A DNA stretch of 57,737 nt from a bacterium (GTDB lineage Bacteria > Verrucomicrobiota > Verrucomicrobiia > Limisphaerales > UBA11358). A program made the translations under genes and the position numbers. Every line of letters begins with the position of its first letter. The first letter of the stretch is position 1. The stretch spans positions 1 to 57,737 of the forward strand of contig JAKALA010000019.1 of the NCBI GenBank assembly GCA_021813325.1. The letters run 5' to 3'. Below, piece after piece: positions 25,782 through 52,884 of this stretch. Under the pieces are notes generated by a model, which searched no databases, was not told the DNA's origin, and was given only the letters and a program-made list of their open reading frames with translations.

Positions 25782-25928
25782 GCTTGAAATTTACCGCCGT
25801 GACGCGGCTCCGTCAATGAAGTGGAATGTCCGTCGGCCATTGGTTTCACGGTGTTCTTTGGAGAAACATCGCAATATCCGGCACTTCTCGGTTGCTAAAT
25901 GTCTTGGCCAAACCATAAGCTCCACCAG

Positions 25929-28169
25929 ATGAAATTTCCCGTAGTGTTTTGGGCATTGGTTTTCATTTTTTGCCTCGAGACTGGCATTTTGCGGGCAGAA
26001 ACGCCGGTAACAACCGCCAAGGCAGTTCCGGCCGCTGCGGCGATCCAGTCAACAAATGTGTTTGCCGGGTATGCCGGCTCGGCCAGTTGTCGCGAATGTC
26101 ACGCGCGCGCCTATGACCTTTGGTCGAAATCGCATCATGCCGAAGCCGAACGTTTGGTTGAAACGAATCGCGATCAATCGGCCTTTGAGCCTGCCCGCGA
26201 ATTGAAAAGCGACACGCAAACCACCCGGGTTCAATGGTGCGACGGTCAGGCGCAGGTTGTCGCCCCCGGCCTCTCTCATATAATGGAAACGAACATTGTG
26301 GATCGCGTCATTGGCGAGGATCCGCTGTGGCAATTTCTCGTTCCGTTTCCGGGCGGACGCTGGCAGACGCTGGAAGCGTCCTACGATCCGCACAGCAACG
26401 CGTGGTTCAATGTTTTCGGCCAGGAAGACCGGCAACCCGGTGAATGGGGCCACTGGACGGGGCGGGGGATGAATTGGAATTCCATGTGCGCAGCCTGTCA
26501 CAACACCCGTTTGCTGAAAAATTACGACGCGGCTTCAGACGCCTATCATACGACCATGGCGGAACGCACTGTTAGTTGCGAAGCCTGCCATGGACCCTTG
26601 AAAGCGCATGTGGAGTGGCAGAAGAAATATGGTGGCACCGGTCAGAAAGACCCGGTTTTTCCCAAGCTTTCGCGCGGGCAAATTTTCGACATGTGCGCCT
26701 CCTGTCATACGCGACGGGCGGATTTGACGGGCAATTTCGTTCCCGGCGACAAGTTTCTGGATCATTACGAACCCTCCACCGTGGATGCCAGCGAGTTGTA
26801 TTATCCCGACGGCCAGGTGCACGACGAGGACTACGAAACGTCGGCTTTTCTCGGCAGCAAAATGTATCATGCCGGCCTGACCTGTCTGGAGTGCCATCCG
26901 CGCTCGTTGCACATTGCCCGGCTGCATGGCAATGACCTGTGCCTGCAATGTCACAAAGGTGGTTATCCCAAGGCGCCGGTCATCAATCCATTGGAACACA
27001 GCCATCATGCGGCGGGCAGCGTTGGCAATGAATGTGCCTGCTGCCACATGCCGGTCACGGTCTATATGCAGCGCCATCCGCGTCACGACCATGGTTTCAC
27101 CATCCCGGATCCGCTCCTGACCAGGCAATTTGGCATTCCCAATGCCTGTAATCGGTGTCACAAAGATCAGTCCGCCGATTGGGCGCTGACGAACGTCGAT
27201 CAATGGTATGGCGCCAAAATGCAGCGGCACACGCGGGAACGGGCGCAGGTCATTGCCCGCGCCCGCAATGGCGATGTGACGACGCGCACCAACTTGATTC
27301 AATTTCTCCACTCTGAAGATAACGGCTACTGGCGCGCGGTTGCCGCCGTGCTCCTGGCGCCTTGGGCCGGCGAAGCCGACGTTCGCGCCGCCCTGTTGCA
27401 GGGGCTGAATGACACCAACGCCATGGTGCGCAGCGCCTGTGTGCGCGGGCTGGGGCCGCTGGTGGAAGATCAAAACGTAGCCCGCGCGGTTCAGGTTAAA
27501 CTGAATGATCCGCTTCGGAATGTCCGCGTCGCGGCGGCCTGGGCGTTGCGGGCAAGTGTGGATACGAATTCAACCGCCGGCGCCGATTTGCTCCGGATGC
27601 TGGCCTGCAATGCGGATCAACCTGTCGGACAATTGCAACTCGGTGAATTTTACGCGTCGCGTGGCGACTTGGCGGCGGCGGTGAAACATTTGAAATCGGC
27701 GGTGAACTGGGACGAATTTTCCACTCCCTTACGCCTTGAATTGGCGGTGATGTTAAGCGCATTGGGGAAAACTTCGGAAGCCGTTGCCCAGTTGCAAGTG
27801 GCCTGTCAGAAAGCGCCCAAAGATGCCGAGGCGCATTTCAGTCTGGCGCTGGCTTACAATGAACTGGGGGAAAAGGATAAAACCCGGACAGAATTGGAGA
27901 CGGCTGTTCAATTGAATCCCAAGTTTGCGCGCGCCTGGTATAATTTGGGTTTGTTGCAGAACTCCACCGGCGAGACGCAAGCCGCTTTGACTTCGCTGTT
28001 GAACGCTGAAAAAGCCGACCCGTCTGATCCGGCCATTCCGTATGCCCGGGCCACCATTTTGGCGCGTTTGAATCGCACGGACGAGGCCAAAGACTTGTTG
28101 CGCCACATTCTCCGGCAACATCCGGACGCCCTGGCGGCGAAACAGATGTTGGATTACTTGTCGCGTTAA
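25929..28169 (+). CDS. Eight-heme cytochrome c with HEAT and TPR repeats
   Basis: 746 residues from the ATG at 25929, with a signal peptide (M-K-F-P-V-V-F-W-A-L-V-F) for export. Eight CxxCH heme motifs occur within roughly the first 420 residues: CRECH, CAACH, CEACH, CASCH, CLECH, CLQCH, CACCH and CNRCH. Many lone histidines (H-S-H-H, R-H-D-H-G) may be distal ligands. HEAT-like repeats follow (about 455-545) and TPRs fill the C-terminus (about 555-740). The layout suits a periplasmic electron-transfer protein that also docks partners. Its electron donor and acceptor are unknown; such proteins are common in Planctomycetes and Verrucomicrobia. Confidence 0.85.
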   Translation: MKFPVVFWALVFIFCLETGILRAETPVTTAKAVPAAAAIQSTNVFAGYAGSASCRECHARAYDLWSKSHHAEAERLVETNRDQSAFEPARELKSDTQTTRVQWCDGQAQVVAPGLSHIMETNIVDRVIGEDPLWQFLVPFPGGRWQTLEASYDPHSNAWFNVFGQEDRQPGEWGHWTGRGMNWNSMCAACHNTRLLKNYDAASDAYHTTMAERTVSCEACHGPLKAHVEWQKKYGGTGQKDPVFPKLSRGQIFDMCASCHTRRADLTGNFVPGDKFLDHYEPSTVDASELYYPDGQVHDEDYETSAFLGSKMYHAGLTCLECHPRSLHIARLHGNDLCLQCHKGGYPKAPVINPLEHSHHAAGSVGNECACCHMPVTVYMQRHPRHDHGFTIPDPLLTRQFGIPNACNRCHKDQSADWALTNVDQWYGAKMQRHTRERAQVIARARNGDVTTRTNLIQFLHSEDNGYWRAVAAVLLAPWAGEADVRAALLQGLNDTNAMVRSACVRGLGPLVEDQNVARAVQVKLNDPLRNVRVAAAWALRASVDTNSTAGADLLRMLACNADQPVGQLQLGEFYASRGDLAAAVKHLKSAVNWDEFSTPLRLELAVMLSALGKTSEAVAQLQVACQKAPKDAEAHFSLALAYNELGEKDKTRTELETAVQLNPKFARAWYNLGLLQNSTGETQAALTSLLNAEKADPSDPAIPYARATILARLNRTDEAKDLLRHILRQHPDALAAKQMLDYLSR

Positions 28170-47379: not shown

Positions 47380-49512
47380 TTAACGGGTGGCACGGTCCAG
47401 CGCTGCCAGGATGATGCGGCTGTAATAGGCGGGCAGGTGCAATGGCGACGGTTGCGGCAAAACCACCGCCGGTAAATCCGGATTTTTGGGATAGACCAAA
47501 ACCAAGGGCACGCCGGCACTCTTATATTTGGAAAGCTCCTCGGTGATGTCCGGTGGTGTGCGCGTATAATCCGCCAGCAGCGGGACGGTGCCGGTTTCTT
47601 TGATTTTCTCGGCGACGGCACTGTTTTCCAGCGCTGGCTTTACGATGGCATTGCAGGTCACGCACCAACTGGCGGTGAAATCCACAAGCACGGCTTTGCC
47701 GTCGGCCCGGGCTTTGGCGATGGCTTCCGGAGACCAGCGTTGCCATTCAATACCGCCCGTGGAATCCGGCGGTGAACGGATCGCCTCGGTCACGGGAATG
47801 GCTTCGCGCCAGTTCAATTCATTCTCCAAGGCAAAATAGTAGCCACCCGCAAGCAAAAGCACAGCGAGGATTCCGGCCATGCTTCTGTGCTGGCGGCCGC
47901 GCTGGGAGAATTCTCCAAAAATCCAGGCAGCAAATGCGACAATGACCAGAAACACACCGAGCCACAAAACACGTTTTCCGTAACTGTCGGCGGCCACGTT
48001 GAACAGCCATACCACTGTGGCCAGCATGGGAAAACCCATGGCGATCTTGAATTTTTCCATCCAAGCCCCGGGTTTGGGCAGGAATTTTAGCAGCGCCGGG
48101 TTACAGCTCAGTAACACATAGGGCGTGGAAAGGCCGAGGCCGACAAACAAAAAAATGGAGATTATGGTCGGCGGCTTTTGTGCGAAGGCAAAACCGAGTG
48201 CCGGAGCCAGAAACGGCGCGGTGCAGGGCGTGGCCAGGACAGTTGCCAGCAGACCATTGAAAAATGCGCCGGGCGCACCATGCTTCGCCGCCAGTTCGCT
48301 GGCGGAGTTCATCGCGCGGCTGCCAAGCGTGACTTCAAAAACACCGAACAAATTAAGCGCGACGAGCGTGACGAGCGTGGTGAGGCAGACCAGAAAAATC
48401 GGGTTGCCGAATTGCATGCCCCAGCCGGCGTGATGTCCGGCCGCATTTACGCCAATGACGACGACTGCGAGGGCGAGAAATGAAACAAGCACGCCGAGGG
48501 CGTAGATCAACCCAAGGTTGCGGACGCGGCGCGGTTCGCTGCTCGCCTCACGAACGAAGCCGAGGATTTTCAGGGCAATCACCGGCAAGACGCAGGGCAT
48601 GATGTTCAGGATCAAGCCGCCGATGAAGGCGTAGATCAGCATCAGCCAAAGCGGTTGGGAGTTGGCTGCCGGACTCGTCGGCATTTCAGTGGCCCCGACA
48701 GGGGTTGGCGGTGTGGATGCCACGGGAATGGTGGTTTCGATGGCATTCCCCGCATTGGCAAAAACGCCGGAGATTTGCCGGGGCCAGTCGCCGGAATATT
48801 TTTTCACCTGCTTGCGCAGATGAATTACGCCGGCGTCGTCCGGAATGATTTCGGTTGGTCCTTGGATTTCAAAGTCATCGCTTGCAGCGGGGAAATACTC
48901 GGGGCCTTCAGCTTTGCCGGGCCATTGAAGATTCAAGGTGCGAGTGTCGTTGGTAGTGGTTGTTTCCCACCATGCCTGGATCCCGGAATTTTCGACGATC
49001 TTTGGCACTTTGTCATGCCAGGCGGCGAGCACGGGCGCTTTGGCGGTGGGCTGGGATTCGTTGGCAACCTGCAAAACGCCCGAGATCTGCGTGCTGGAAG
49101 GAATGCAGGACTCTTTGCATTCCAGCCAGGAAACCTTGGCGGATAGGGACAGATCTCCGGGAGCCACGGTGGCGGCAATCGTCAACGGGACGAGCAGCAT
49201 CACCTCGTTTTCGTAACCGTAGGTGGTGACTTCCGCCGGGGGCAGTTTTGCCGGGAGCGGCCACTGGATTTTGCCGGCGGTAATTCCGGCGGGCAGTTGC
49301 CATTTGATCTCCGTGGCCTCACCGGCGGCGCCGGGATTTTTCCAGTAAGTGTGCCAGCCTGGTTCCATCCGCAGACGCACTCCAGCCAGAATCGTGGTGC
49401 CGGGAGCCGCAGGGTTGGAGAACAATATCAATTGAACTTCAGTGTGCGCTGCGCGGGCGGCGCCACCGCTCAAGATGAACAACAAAACCAGGATGCTTAA
49501 AAAGCGGTGCAT
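47380..49512 (-). CDS. dsbD: DsbD-type thiol:disulfide interchange protein
   Basis: 710 residues. Signal peptide, then a DsbD-alpha-like periplasmic domain with W-L-E-C-K-E-S-C-I-P, an eight-helix CcdA-like core with the redox cysteines in I-M-P-C-V-L-P and T-P-C-T-A-P-F, and a thioredoxin-like C-terminal domain with S-W-C-V-T-C-N. It moves electrons from cytoplasmic thioredoxin to the periplasm, keeping proteins such as TlpA or the neighbouring redoxin reduced. Confidence 0.9.
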   Translation of the reverse strand: MHRFLSILVLLFILSGGAARAAHTEVQLILFSNPAAPGTTILAGVRLRMEPGWHTYWKNPGAAGEATEIKWQLPAGITAGKIQWPLPAKLPPAEVTTYGYENEVMLLVPLTIAATVAPGDLSLSAKVSWLECKESCIPSSTQISGVLQVANESQPTAKAPVLAAWHDKVPKIVENSGIQAWWETTTTNDTRTLNLQWPGKAEGPEYFPAASDDFEIQGPTEIIPDDAGVIHLRKQVKKYSGDWPRQISGVFANAGNAIETTIPVASTPPTPVGATEMPTSPAANSQPLWLMLIYAFIGGLILNIMPCVLPVIALKILGFVREASSEPRRVRNLGLIYALGVLVSFLALAVVVIGVNAAGHHAGWGMQFGNPIFLVCLTTLVTLVALNLFGVFEVTLGSRAMNSASELAAKHGAPGAFFNGLLATVLATPCTAPFLAPALGFAFAQKPPTIISIFLFVGLGLSTPYVLLSCNPALLKFLPKPGAWMEKFKIAMGFPMLATVVWLFNVAADSYGKRVLWLGVFLVIVAFAAWIFGEFSQRGRQHRSMAGILAVLLLAGGYYFALENELNWREAIPVTEAIRSPPDSTGGIEWQRWSPEAIAKARADGKAVLVDFTASWCVTCNAIVKPALENSAVAEKIKETGTVPLLADYTRTPPDITEELSKYKSAGVPLVLVYPKNPDLPAVVLPQPSPLHLPAYYSRIILAALDRATR

Positions 49513-49568: not shown

Positions 49569-51809
49569 TTATCCGCGTTTCCGCCAAAGTCGTTGGCGGT
49601 GGATCGTCATCGTCAGGCCAAAAATCATGAGACAGCCCCAGCCAAACCAGTCGCCATGCCGCTGGTAAAATGTTTCTGGATTTTTGTCGCTGGCAGTTCG
49701 CACCGGTATTTCCATGAGCAGGGAGCCGGCACCGTATTCGCTGCCGTGGGCGTTTTGAAAAAACTGGCGCACGCGTCCGCATTCATCAATCCAGCCGGTG
49801 ATGCCGTTATTGGCGCTGCGCACGAGGGGAATGCCGTTTTCCACGGCGCGAAACACGGCATTGGCGAGATGCTGCCATTGCTCGGCACTGTTCCCAAACC
49901 AACCGTCATTGGTGAGATTAACCATGAGATCGGGGGAATCTGTGGCGGCCACTTTGCGAGCCACGGCGGGAAAAACATCTTCAAAGCAGATTAATGGAGC
50001 CAGCTTTACCGGTTGCGCTCTTTCGGACGAGCTGAAGTTATCTCCAATGCGAATGACATTTTCGTGGGACGATTTGGTTTTGTTCCAGTCCGATAGTTGA
50101 AAAACAACCGGCCGGTCCCCCGGAGTCCAGCCGCCCTCGATGGGCGTGAGCCATTTCAGAAAGGGCAGCCAGTTTGCCAGTGGAACGTATTCGCCAAAGA
50201 TGACGAGCTTCTGCTTGTGATAAATCCCGTTGCAGACGCCGTTGGTCTGGATGATGAAGGCGGAGTTGTAGAAGTTGGTGGCCGTCGCCGAAAAATCCAC
50301 GTCGTCGCCGTTGAAGATGATGGCTACATGATTGGATTCAGCGAAATGGCTGATGAGGCTGTAAACGCCGTCAAAAGTTGGGACGGCCGATTCCGGCCAA
50401 AGCAGCAAATCCGGCCGGTTGGTCATGGCCTGCTGGGACGCTGCGAGCAGCGCGCCAAAACGTTTTTCGTCATCATCCTCCGACCAAATCAGCGTTTGCG
50501 GAACGCTCGGTTGAATGCTGACGACCCGGAGTCTTTCGTCCGGGTTCCGCGCCCTGGCGGTTCGGAAGTTATGATTGATCCAAAACATGCCGCCAACAAA
50601 CAACAGCACAATGCCGAAAATGGGCACGGCAATTTCCGCCTGCCACGCGTGACGTCTGGCGGGATGGCGATAAATCATTTCCGCCGCGGCATACAGCGCG
50701 AGGGAAAACCAGGCCACCACGAAGGAAACGCCATAGACGCCCGTGATGGACGCGATTTGAATGAGTGGAACCAGCTTGTATTGCGACACGCCCAGAAAGC
50801 TCCAAGGAAAGCCGGTGAACAGCCAGCCTCGCAACATTTCCAATCCCACCCACGCCGCCGCCCCGGTAAACATCCAAATCACACGTCCGCTCCAACTGGA
50901 ACCCGGAAATTCGGCGCTGGCCACAAACCAGACCCAGATTCCGAAATACACGGCAAGATACGCGCCGAGCGCCATCCAGCCTAAAATTGGAAAACCAGTC
51001 ACCGGCATGAACAACAGCCAGTAAAGCGAAGTCAGCCAAAAGGCCAGGCCGCCAATGTATCCCACGCGAAATGCATCCGCGCCGCGTTTGCCCCTGGCGG
51101 CCAACAGGAGCAATGCGGGAGCAATCCAGGCGAAGCCGGCCAGGCTGGTTTTGGGAAAGGCGCCCGCCAGCAGCATGCCCGCCAAGACAGCCAGCAAATA
51201 GCCGCTGCGCCAGAAGAGTTCCCGGCTCACGCTTCTGGCAATTTCCAGCGAAGAATAATGATCGCAAAACGCTGGCCCAAGCCGGGTGCAGTGGGCGGCC
51301 TGGGCCAGGACGGCGGGACTGGCATTGACCACAACCGCCTGACGCGAGCCGCGCCAGACGGCGTAATCCGCGGTGGAATTTCCCGCGTAATCAAAGCCGC
51401 GTTCGCCAAATTTTTCCGTGAGCGCGCGGAGTTTGTTTTCGCTGCGCAAATTGGTCCGGCCATCGCTGGCAAGCACTTCATCGAACAATCCGACGTGGTC
51501 CGCCACCGGCCTGGCCATTTTAACATCCGATGCCGTGGCCAGAATGAGTTTGCGCCCGGCGGCTTTTTCTTCGCGCAACCAGGCTAAAAACTTCTCGTGG
51601 TAGGGCAGGGTGGACGGATCAACCCGCACGCGGGCGGCAAGTTTTTGTTTGAGCAATGCGCGGCCGCGGGACCACCAAAAAAGAATTTGGAAAAGGGCCA
51701 GCGGATTTCTTCGAAGCAACCGGGAGAGGGATTCCCACATCAGGTCTGTGCGGATGAGCGTGCCATCCAGATCGACGACGAGTGGGATTTGGGAGGCGGG
51801 CGAATCCAT
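49569..51809 (-). CDS. lnt: HAD-phosphatase/apolipoprotein N-acyltransferase fusion
   Basis: 746 residues. Residues ~1-165 are a HAD domain like those fused to UbiA prenyltransferases: D13-L-D15-G-T, the A-T-A-S-D motif and Y-A-G-N-S-T-A-D. Residues ~200-420 contain the membrane helices of Lnt, and 425-745 the nitrilase-like domain with E473 (W-P-E-S-A), K534 (Y-H-K-Q-K-L-V) and C608 (L-I-C-F-E-D), the Lnt catalytic triad. Lnt adds the third acyl chain to lipoproteins. The HAD domain's role is unknown; it may dephosphorylate a lipid product. The gene starts 2 bp after the DUF4202 gene stop. Confidence 0.88.
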   Translation of the reverse strand: MDSPASQIPLVVDLDGTLIRTDLMWESLSRLLRRNPLALFQILFWWSRGRALLKQKLAARVRVDPSTLPYHEKFLAWLREEKAAGRKLILATASDVKMARPVADHVGLFDEVLASDGRTNLRSENKLRALTEKFGERGFDYAGNSTADYAVWRGSRQAVVVNASPAVLAQAAHCTRLGPAFCDHYSSLEIARSVSRELFWRSGYLLAVLAGMLLAGAFPKTSLAGFAWIAPALLLLAARGKRGADAFRVGYIGGLAFWLTSLYWLLFMPVTGFPILGWMALGAYLAVYFGIWVWFVASAEFPGSSWSGRVIWMFTGAAAWVGLEMLRGWLFTGFPWSFLGVSQYKLVPLIQIASITGVYGVSFVVAWFSLALYAAAEMIYRHPARRHAWQAEIAVPIFGIVLLFVGGMFWINHNFRTARARNPDERLRVVSIQPSVPQTLIWSEDDDEKRFGALLAASQQAMTNRPDLLLWPESAVPTFDGVYSLISHFAESNHVAIIFNGDDVDFSATATNFYNSAFIIQTNGVCNGIYHKQKLVIFGEYVPLANWLPFLKWLTPIEGGWTPGDRPVVFQLSDWNKTKSSHENVIRIGDNFSSSERAQPVKLAPLICFEDVFPAVARKVAATDSPDLMVNLTNDGWFGNSAEQWQHLANAVFRAVENGIPLVRSANNGITGWIDECGRVRQFFQNAHGSEYGAGSLLMEIPVRTASDKNPETFYQRHGDWFGWGCLMIFGLTMTIHRQRLWRKRG

Positions 51810-51811
51810 GC

Positions 51812-52384
51812 TCAGACTTTCAATGCGCGGGCAATCAGGCTTCTTTCGTGTTCGCCAAATGGCAGTTTCAAAGCTTCGGTCCGGGCGGCCTCCGTCATCT
51901 TTTCCCAGGATTTGCGGAGCGCATTAATCATCTTTTCATCGTCGCTTTTGGCGGCGAGCGCGGCCAATTGAAATTCCAAGAACACCAAGCACAGAGCGTC
52001 TTCCAGCACGCGACTCTCGGCATCGTTTGGGGAATGCCTTTTCAAGTTCAATTCCTGCACGCGCTGGACGGTTTGATCGTCGTGGCCCAACTCGCGGAGG
52101 ATGGCGCCGGATTTTTCCGCATGAAATTTTTTAAGGTCCGCCCGCCATTTGAGATAACCCGGACGCGTCATGGGATAACTTTCGCGGGGGATTTCCCAAC
52201 GGCAAATATGCTGGCTGCGGGCGGCCAGTTGAAGGGGCGCGGAGGCGTCGGGCGCCAGTTTCAAAACCCAGTTGGTGAGGCGCTGGGCGTAGAGCAGTTC
52301 GCGCGGAAGGCCGTTTTCGCGATGCGGATCACGCGAGTTCTCCGCATCAAAGCGGGCCATGGCGGCGTTAAAAAGATCGTTCAC
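51812..52384 (-). CDS. DUF4202 protein
   Basis: 190 residues from a GTG at 52384. Family-typical features are A-R-S-Q-H-I-C-R-W-E-I-P-R and P-G-Y-L-K-W-R, followed by E-D-A-L-C-L-V-F-L-E. Its histidine/aspartate pattern resembles an HD-like fold, but this is a visual impression. Function unknown. It ends 2 bp from the HAD-Lnt gene start. Confidence 0.75.
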   Translation of the reverse strand: MNDLFNAAMARFDAENSRDPHRENGLPRELLYAQRLTNWVLKLAPDASAPLQLAARSQHICRWEIPRESYPMTRPGYLKWRADLKKFHAEKSGAILRELGHDDQTVQRVQELNLKRHSPNDAESRVLEDALCLVFLEFQLAALAAKSDDEKMINALRKSWEKMTEAARTEALKLPFGEHERSLIARALKV

Positions 52385-52476
52385 AGGGCGATTTTTTCTG
52401 AAGCCCGGCAAATTGCAAGCCGCCGGAAAACAAAAAAGCGCCGCGACTTGACGTGCGGCGCGGGGAATTGAACGGT

Positions 52477-52884
52477 TCAGTGACCGTGGCAGCCGCAACC
52501 GCCATGACCGTCGCAGGAGCTGCCGTTGAGTTCATCGGCGGTCGGAATGCGGCCCAGTTCGATGGTTTTGCCGACTTGCCGGGAAACGTGGTGTTTCAGT
52601 TCGTGCATTTCTTCCTGGGCATCGAGGAAGGCGGACGCCACCGGGTTGTGCAGCAACGCGTCGCGCTCTTGTTCAAATTGGGAGATTTCCGCCGGTTCCA
52701 GCGTCTGGCCATTGTGCTGTTTTTCCTGCAGCGCCTGGCCTTTGTTCATGACGCTTTCATATTGGCCGCGCGCTCCGGCGTCAGCGAGGAAAGTATCAAT
52801 GCGTTTCTTGATGCCATCCGTTTCGATCTTTTGAATGATGGCCTCACACAGTTCGCGCGTCTTAATTTCAACGTTAGTGGACAT
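52477..52884 (-). CDS. YlbF/YmcA-family protein with Cys/His tail
   Basis: 135 residues, mainly helical, in the style of YlbF/YmcA proteins known in Bacillus for RNA processing and competence control. The C-terminal tail N-G-S-S-C-D-G-H-G-G-C-G-C-H-G-H is rich in Cys and His and could bind a metal or Fe-S cluster, as the Bacillus Y-complex does. Separated by 92 bp from the DUF4202 gene. Confidence 0.7.
   Translation of the reverse strand: MSTNVEIKTRELCEAIIQKIETDGIKKRIDTFLADAGARGQYESVMNKGQALQEKQHNGQTLEPAEISQFEQERDALLHNPVASAFLDAQEEMHELKHHVSRQVGKTIELGRIPTADELNGSSCDGHGGCGCHGH

Follow-up and report, generated by a model that had tools for sequence, protein, structure and literature searches.

In Escherichia coli, apolipoprotein N-acyltransferase (Lnt) has its N- and C-termini in the cytoplasm and its active site, with the triad E267/K335/C387, in the periplasm, as described in the available part of the source (PMC5500888). 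Ppm1 of Mycobacterium tuberculosis is an Lnt fused to a polyprenol-phosphate-mannose synthase, according to the accessible text of PMC3460810. HAD-UbiA synthases (PRP-PPPRS; PRK08238) join a HAD phosphatase to a UbiA transferase half. For ORF15 of Citrobacter youngae, the portion of PMC11127046 that was available reports that the homologous phosphatase domain removes the 5-phosphate from polyprenyl-phosphate-ribose, and that the D18A mutant accumulated the phosphorylated product, with some dephosphorylated product remaining. The available text of PMC11629553 locates E. coli PgpA and PgpC on the cytoplasmic side of the membrane and reports that they require Mg2+ and also act on lysophosphatidic acid (LPA).

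The protein analysed here resembles the HAD-UbiA synthases over residues 4–221, with the same motifs, but has Lnt in place of the UbiA transferase half. It is like the Lnts of known structure (E. coli and P. aeruginosa) in its membrane and nitrilase domains, its triad and its score above the TIGR00546 cut-off, and adds an N-terminal HAD domain of about 200 residues that is expected to be cytoplasmic. Ppm1 and the ppm operon are comparable in pairing Lnt, by fusion or by operon, with a polyprenyl-phosphate-sugar enzyme (PMC3460810, in part), although the partner is an N-terminal HAD phosphatase here and a C-terminal mannose synthase domain in Ppm1. With PgpA and PgpC it would share the cytoplasmic face and a proposed reaction (PMC11629553, in part), which for this HAD is a predicted activity; it matches neither profile. 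No paper describing HAD-Lnt was found in the open-access literature. The one Lnt fusion that was found described is mycobacterial Ppm1, and HAD-Lnt is a second, again linked to polyprenyl-phosphate sugars.

Architecture of the fusion gene

The fusion gene occupies positions 49569–51809 (minus strand) of the window, by which we mean the whole 57,737-nucleotide stretch that was analysed, as a single open reading frame of 746 amino acids with an ATG start. It was delimited by profile matches and by 41 other in-frame fusions. Residues 1–186 (51252–51809, minus strand) were assigned from profiles, model and fold to a HAD-IB phosphatase domain of the phosphoribose-phosphatase type. Residues 187–203 (51201–51251, minus strand) are a junction helix ahead of TM1, recognized from the model and from conservation across the fusions, and residues 204–746 (49572–51200, minus strand) are the Lnt part, with a membrane domain and a nitrilase domain identified by profiles and structure matches. 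Pfam returned HAD (PF12710; residues 11–149, E = 1.7e-10), LNT_N (PF20154; residues 210–370, E = 4.4e-31) and CN_hydrolase (PF00795; residues 445–676, E = 5.8e-19), and the NCBIfam model TIGR00546 (lnt) scored 271.7 bits, above its curated cut-off of 132.9. PRK08238 ('UbiA family prenyltransferase') matched residues 4–221 through its HAD half with 218 bits, short of the full-length cut-off of 351, and the UbiA half had no Pfam or NCBIfam match. The initial annotation had described a HAD domain of the kind fused to UbiA, with an intact D-L-D-G-T motif, joined to a complete Lnt with all three catalytic residues; these matches, the motif at residues 13–17 and the triad E473, K532 and C608 bear this out.

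PgpC is also a HAD. A PgpC-type HAD was rejected for the window protein, which had no match to the PgpC model (TIGR01545, NCBIfam) at E values up to 0.1; one standalone HAD relative gave a 42-residue match to this model (E = 0.0022), far under the cut-off. The PgpA family (PF04608) was likewise without a match in the Pfam search of the window protein, and no glycosyltransferase domain was present among its Pfam or NCBIfam matches.

Directly upstream, after a gap of 2 nt, lies a DUF4202 gene (51812–52498, minus strand), a locus marker that is also found near unfused HAD-UbiA genes, followed by a second marker, a YlbF-family gene (52477–52884, minus strand). A DsbD-like gene identified by profile match (47380–49512, minus strand) stands downstream on the same strand and also occurs at two other loci (L108 and L118). 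Elsewhere in the window, positions 33–665 carry a CDP-alcohol phosphatidyltransferase gene, the two stronger pgsA matches of the genome being on other contigs, and positions 25899–28169 encode a protein with cytochrome c554/c7-type matches and HEAT and TPR repeats.

Distribution of the fusion

When 320 genomes of the order Limisphaerales were searched for the HAD domain, 80 loci in 77 genomes were found. At 42 of these loci the HAD and Lnt are joined in a single open frame; all 42 come from one genus, which includes the window's genome, and one of them (G004) stops at a contig end inside Lnt. The genus has 45 HAD-positive genomes: 42 with the fusion, three of which (G007, G020 and G239) also have a separate HAD-UbiA gene, and three (G026, G243 and G023) with HAD-UbiA instead. 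In four more genomes of the genus, with completeness between 66 and 81%, no HAD was detected. The fusion was not found outside this genus among the 320 genomes of the order, and in a 387-genome sample of the phylum HAD-containing frames of fusion length, counted by length and not by an Lnt match, were limited to the window's genome and a second genome of the genus. In a scan of genome contigs (best 80 of 466), the records that carry the fusion come from metagenome assemblies; most of their titles give Verrucomicrobia subdivision 3, Limisphaerales or Verrucomicrobiia, a few give other names, and some isolate names refer to palsa or bog. Many other fusion-bearing genomes are presumably of lake origin.

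Since the fusion-bearing genomes named in the contig scan are metagenome-assembled, an assembly or frameshift error that joins two genes was considered. It was rejected, and we assign it next to no probability, because the same in-frame junction recurs in 42 genomes and many assemblies with no stops inside the matches. The frameshift of which the initial annotation had warned thus gives way to one open frame in 42 genomes of the order, and the fusion is genuine.

Motifs, fold and constraint of the HAD domain

HAD motif I, D13-L-D15-G-T17, lies at 51759–51773, with D13, D15, G16 and T17 present in all 42 fused HADs. T92 (51534–51536) and K126 (51432–51434), which we take to be motifs II and III, are kept in 42 of 42, as are G143, N144, S145 and D148 of motif IV (G-N-S-x-x-D, residues 143–148; 51366–51383; all minus strand). 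HAD motif IV usually reads GDS. A degenerate motif IV was nevertheless rejected, as the equivalent of N144 is present in 28 of the 29 aligned HAD-UbiA proteins, so that the asparagine looks ancestral. This alignment comprised 42 fused HADs, 29 of 30 from HAD-UbiA and six of eight others; one HAD-UbiA row (L131) and two standalone rows (L129 and L090, the latter cut by a contig end) were left out. The fused HADs keep most of the positions conserved in HAD-UbiA, with three fusion-specific positions and one lost. A HAD of the same kind is fused to a WecG/TagA-type glycosyltransferase at L129:819-2216 (G150), a further architecture.

The HAD domain was modelled with a pLDDT of 93.8. The model superimposed on 3fvv_B (Z = 15.9, r.m.s.d. 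3.2, 175 aligned residues) and on SerB (3m1y_A; Z = 14.2, r.m.s.d. 3.5, 169 aligned residues), and from it the domain is assigned the HAD-IB fold of the phosphoserine phosphatase class. Comparison of the HAD sequence with PDB chains gave no useful match.

Over the 820 pairs formed by 41 fused proteins, mean identity is 68% in the HAD domain and 58% in Lnt, and the HAD domain is the more similar of the two in 785 pairs. In 11 chosen fused pairs the dN/dS of the HAD domain was 0.035–0.215, lower than that of Lnt in ten. Together with the invariant motifs, these values indicate that the HAD domain is under selection, though its former partner is missing from most of the fusion genomes examined, and the constraint on it is strong, and stronger than that on Lnt. 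They also bear on the proposal that the domain has no catalytic role, being either vestigial or an N-terminal module that serves structure or regulation. Such an outcome is conceivable for a domain that arose by domain loss beside an essential gene, since shortening the protein there could damage Lnt; but catalytic motifs kept in all 42 proteins, a constraint exceeding that of Lnt and the existence of standalone relatives without UbiA in other families make it very improbable.

The Lnt part, the junction and membrane topology

Alignment to the solved Lnt chains in the PDB placed the catalytic triad at E473 (50391–50393), K532 (50214–50216) and C608 (49986–49988; all minus strand). The model of the full-length fusion, of middling quality (pLDDT 69.6), retrieved solved Lnts in a structure search; this model and the hydropathy profile agree only roughly with the eight TM helices and inside termini of Lnt. 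At the HAD-Lnt junction the model has a helix at residues 187–202. By eye, the linker is of the same length in the 42 fusions except for L020 and L121, in which it is one residue shorter. E197, L198, S202 and Y204 are invariant in 29 aligned fusions, and L198 is replaced by F in one further fusion (L124).

Because the HAD domain precedes TM1, and given the topology of the solved Lnts, the HAD would be cytoplasmic and its active site and that of Lnt should face opposite sides of the membrane. The predicted position fits a lipid phosphate of the inner leaflet and not direct handling of the periplasmic by-product of Lnt. The initial annotation had suggested a phosphorylated lipid, for example the lyso-phospholipid released by Lnt: the lipid remains the most plausible class of substrate, whereas joint processing of the by-product is disfavoured by the opposite-side active sites (PMC5500888, available part).

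The same topology weighs on a broader alternative, that the HAD is active on another phosphate, whether LPA, a soluble sugar phosphate or the lyso-phospholipid from Lnt turnover. HAD-IB enzymes are diverse, and the LPA activity of E. coli PgpA and PgpC (PMC11629553, in part) lends the idea some support; yet the Lnt active site is periplasmic (PMC5500888, in part) when the HAD should be cytoplasmic, and no genomic evidence points to such a substrate. We regard this alternative as unlikely.

Origin of the fusion

Judged by sequence, the window HAD domain is a homologue of the phosphatase half of the HAD-UbiA polyprenyl-phosphoribose synthases. Two genomes of the same genus, G026 and G243, have an unfused Lnt immediately preceded by a complete HAD-UbiA gene. 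DUF4202 is upstream on the same strand in G026, beyond a divergent membrane gene, an arrangement shared with the fused loci L102, L106, L107 and L115. In G023 it adjoins HAD-UbiA, Lnt being on a different contig, and in G243 DUF4202 and YlbF stand on the opposite side of Lnt, from which we take that locus to be rearranged. With HAD-UbiA immediately ahead of Lnt in the unfused relatives, loss of UbiA inside the operon offers a simple origin of the fusion: UbiA was likely lost, leaving the HAD in frame with Lnt just before TM1.

Related arrangements were seen in other families. In one genome each of families f37, f23 and f31 (L080, L085 and L092) the gene order is HAD-UbiA, GMC oxidoreductase, SDR, SDR, Lnt. 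This operon looks like a polyprenyl-phosphate-pentose epimerization pathway with a GMC enzyme replacing DprE1 and Lnt last, and the verrucomicrobial operon repeats the theme of Lnt and polyprenyl-phosphate sugars with different enzymes. At L089:4033-6429 (G257, family f9) a standalone HAD lies directly upstream of Lnt without UbiA, a parallel to the fusion. At L230:4750-5682 (G327, family f65) HAD-UbiA is split by a stop, with the HAD reading frame intact and a UbiA remnant behind it; this genome has no PgpA match.

The HAD tree groups the fused HADs with four HAD-UbiA HADs of the genus, inside the HAD-UbiA rows; the G243 HAD and the second G007 copy fall outside this group, in both cases with weak support. 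An AU test on the Lnt tree (48 rows, L085 and L092 having been dropped from 50) rejected monophyly of the fused genes (p = 1e-6). In the three unfused members of the genus, different segments are closest to different fused species, as recombination would give, and the junction shared by the fusions argues for one fusion event. These observations tentatively suggest a single fusion with later recombination; recurrent fusion could also have produced the pattern.

Fate of the former partners

A UbiA of the DPPR-synthase type is present in two of the 31 fusion genomes checked and was not found in the other 29, the window's genome among them. A match in G030 (E = 4.4e-4) was rejected as an ordinary UbiA-family protein. 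UbiA-superfamily proteins occur in all 59 genomes searched, so the absence concerns the DPPR-synthase type only. The GMC partner gave only weak matches in 36 genomes of the genus (best E = 6.5e-7). The absences of partner genes and of PgpA refer to draft genomes, some only 69% complete.

The divergent membrane gene at L107:7959-9536 and its homologues beside HAD-UbiA or HAD-Lnt form a membrane family of about 525 residues with no usable Pfam or NCBIfam match. Two members that were scored have 8 to 11 hydrophobic segments, and the acidic first loop suggests an undescribed GT-C-like glycosyltransferase. This gene was found in 14 of the 31 fusion genomes (two with a stop inside the match), in 12 of them beside the fusion on the same contig. 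In the remaining 17 neither it nor the DPPR-synthase-type UbiA was found, and as these genomes still keep the HAD, its role seems independent of both.

The HAD domain may have kept its ancestral job, taking the 5-phosphate off polyprenyl-phosphate-ribose made by an unrecognized phosphoribosyltransferase, for pentofuranosylation of lipoproteins or of the surface near Lnt. This would resemble the actinobacterial ppm/lnt link in style, and it accords with most conserved positions being the same as in HAD-UbiA, with retention of the GT-C-like gene in those 14 genomes and with the operon of three sister families, in which the two SDRs would be epimerases. Against it stand the 29 genomes in which the DPPR-synthase-type UbiA was not found, the weak GMC matches and the 17 genomes that keep the HAD without UbiA and the GT-C-like gene, and we consider it improbable.

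PgpA, pgsA and PAP2 phosphatases

All 36 relatives searched, 23 of them from the fusion genus, have pgsA, and the match exceeds the cut-off in 35, so phosphatidylglycerophosphate (PGP) should be made in these organisms. The PGP phosphatase families searched across the genomes were PgpA and PAP2. PgpA was detected in all 13 genomes of other families versus none of the 23 of the fusion genus, with no match in the window's genome. In the order it occurs in 208 of 313 genomes, none of them from the fusion family. Among 154 high-quality genomes of the order, 44 have the HAD only, 100 PgpA only, four both and six neither, if the same 154 genomes are taken to underlie both searches; at least one of the two is therefore present in 148, a nearly complementary distribution. 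With the fusion family set aside (126 high-quality genomes), the counts are 16, 100, four and six, respectively. The PgpA search covered 313 of the 320 genomes, so that up to seven 'PgpA-negative' genomes may lie outside it; with this coverage, PgpA was found in none of the 48 genomes that carry a HAD without a UbiA half (42 fused, six standalone), but in six of the 24 that carry HAD-UbiA and lie outside the fusion family. Family f9 includes two genomes in which the HAD, but not PgpA, was matched and ten in which the reverse holds; one of the two is G257, whose HAD is standalone and adjoins Lnt.

The exclusion of HAD and PgpA in the order follows clades, and the independent events are accordingly few. 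In the phylum sample the exclusion breaks down and the two tend to occur together: of 33 genomes with the HAD, mostly in frames of HAD-UbiA length, 22 also contain PgpA. Both are missing from 203 of the 387 genomes, which shows that lack of PgpA does not require this HAD. PAP2 phosphatases, which could be an alternative source of PGP phosphatase activity, were present in all 58 genomes searched, with four in the window's genome; of the three of these four that were scanned, two had weak, below-cut-off similarity to PgpB and one had no NCBIfam match. No phosphatase gene directly follows pgsA in three genomes of the genus, where a RodZ-like HTH gene stands instead. The gene before pgsA, looked at in the window's genome, encodes a phosphoglycerate-mutase-type enzyme.

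Discussion

We tentatively favour, as a possible reading of these data, one bifunctional inner-membrane enzyme in which the HAD acts on PGP, having displaced PgpA, and Lnt keeps its N-acylation. More doubtful is the fuller form, in which the bifunctional HAD-Lnt would be essential and its HAD a new lineage of PGP phosphatase, derived from the phosphoribose phosphatase, that displaced PgpA, could no longer be dispensed with, outlived UbiA and was captured by the next gene. On the evidence from the genomes, PGP is a hypothesis that does somewhat better than its rivals.

In the favoured bifunctional enzyme, the HAD has probably kept its metal-dependent phosphatase activity, and Lnt would hold it at the cytoplasmic face. 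Less surely, its substrate would be PGP and its product phosphatidylglycerol. PGP shares the outline of the ancestral substrate, a lipid with a phosphodiester-linked polyol bearing a terminal phosphate, and a HAD with this activity would explain why it could not be lost with UbiA. Displacement of PgpA would have to predate the loss of UbiA, because 18 of the 24 HAD-UbiA genomes outside the fusion family are not PgpA-positive. The Lnt part would retain its usual periplasmic N-acylation role, in which lipoproteins receive their final fatty acid, and the benefit of the fusion may lie in membrane anchoring and in co-expression of two essential envelope steps rather than in substrate channelling.

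Should the HAD prove to be a PGP phosphatase, the step that is missing from phosphatidylglycerol synthesis would be filled in for one group of uncultured Verrucomicrobia, and the fusion would show how a leftover domain becomes trapped by an essential function. Either way, HAD-Lnt provides a clean, testable case of a domain that has survived the loss of its partner.
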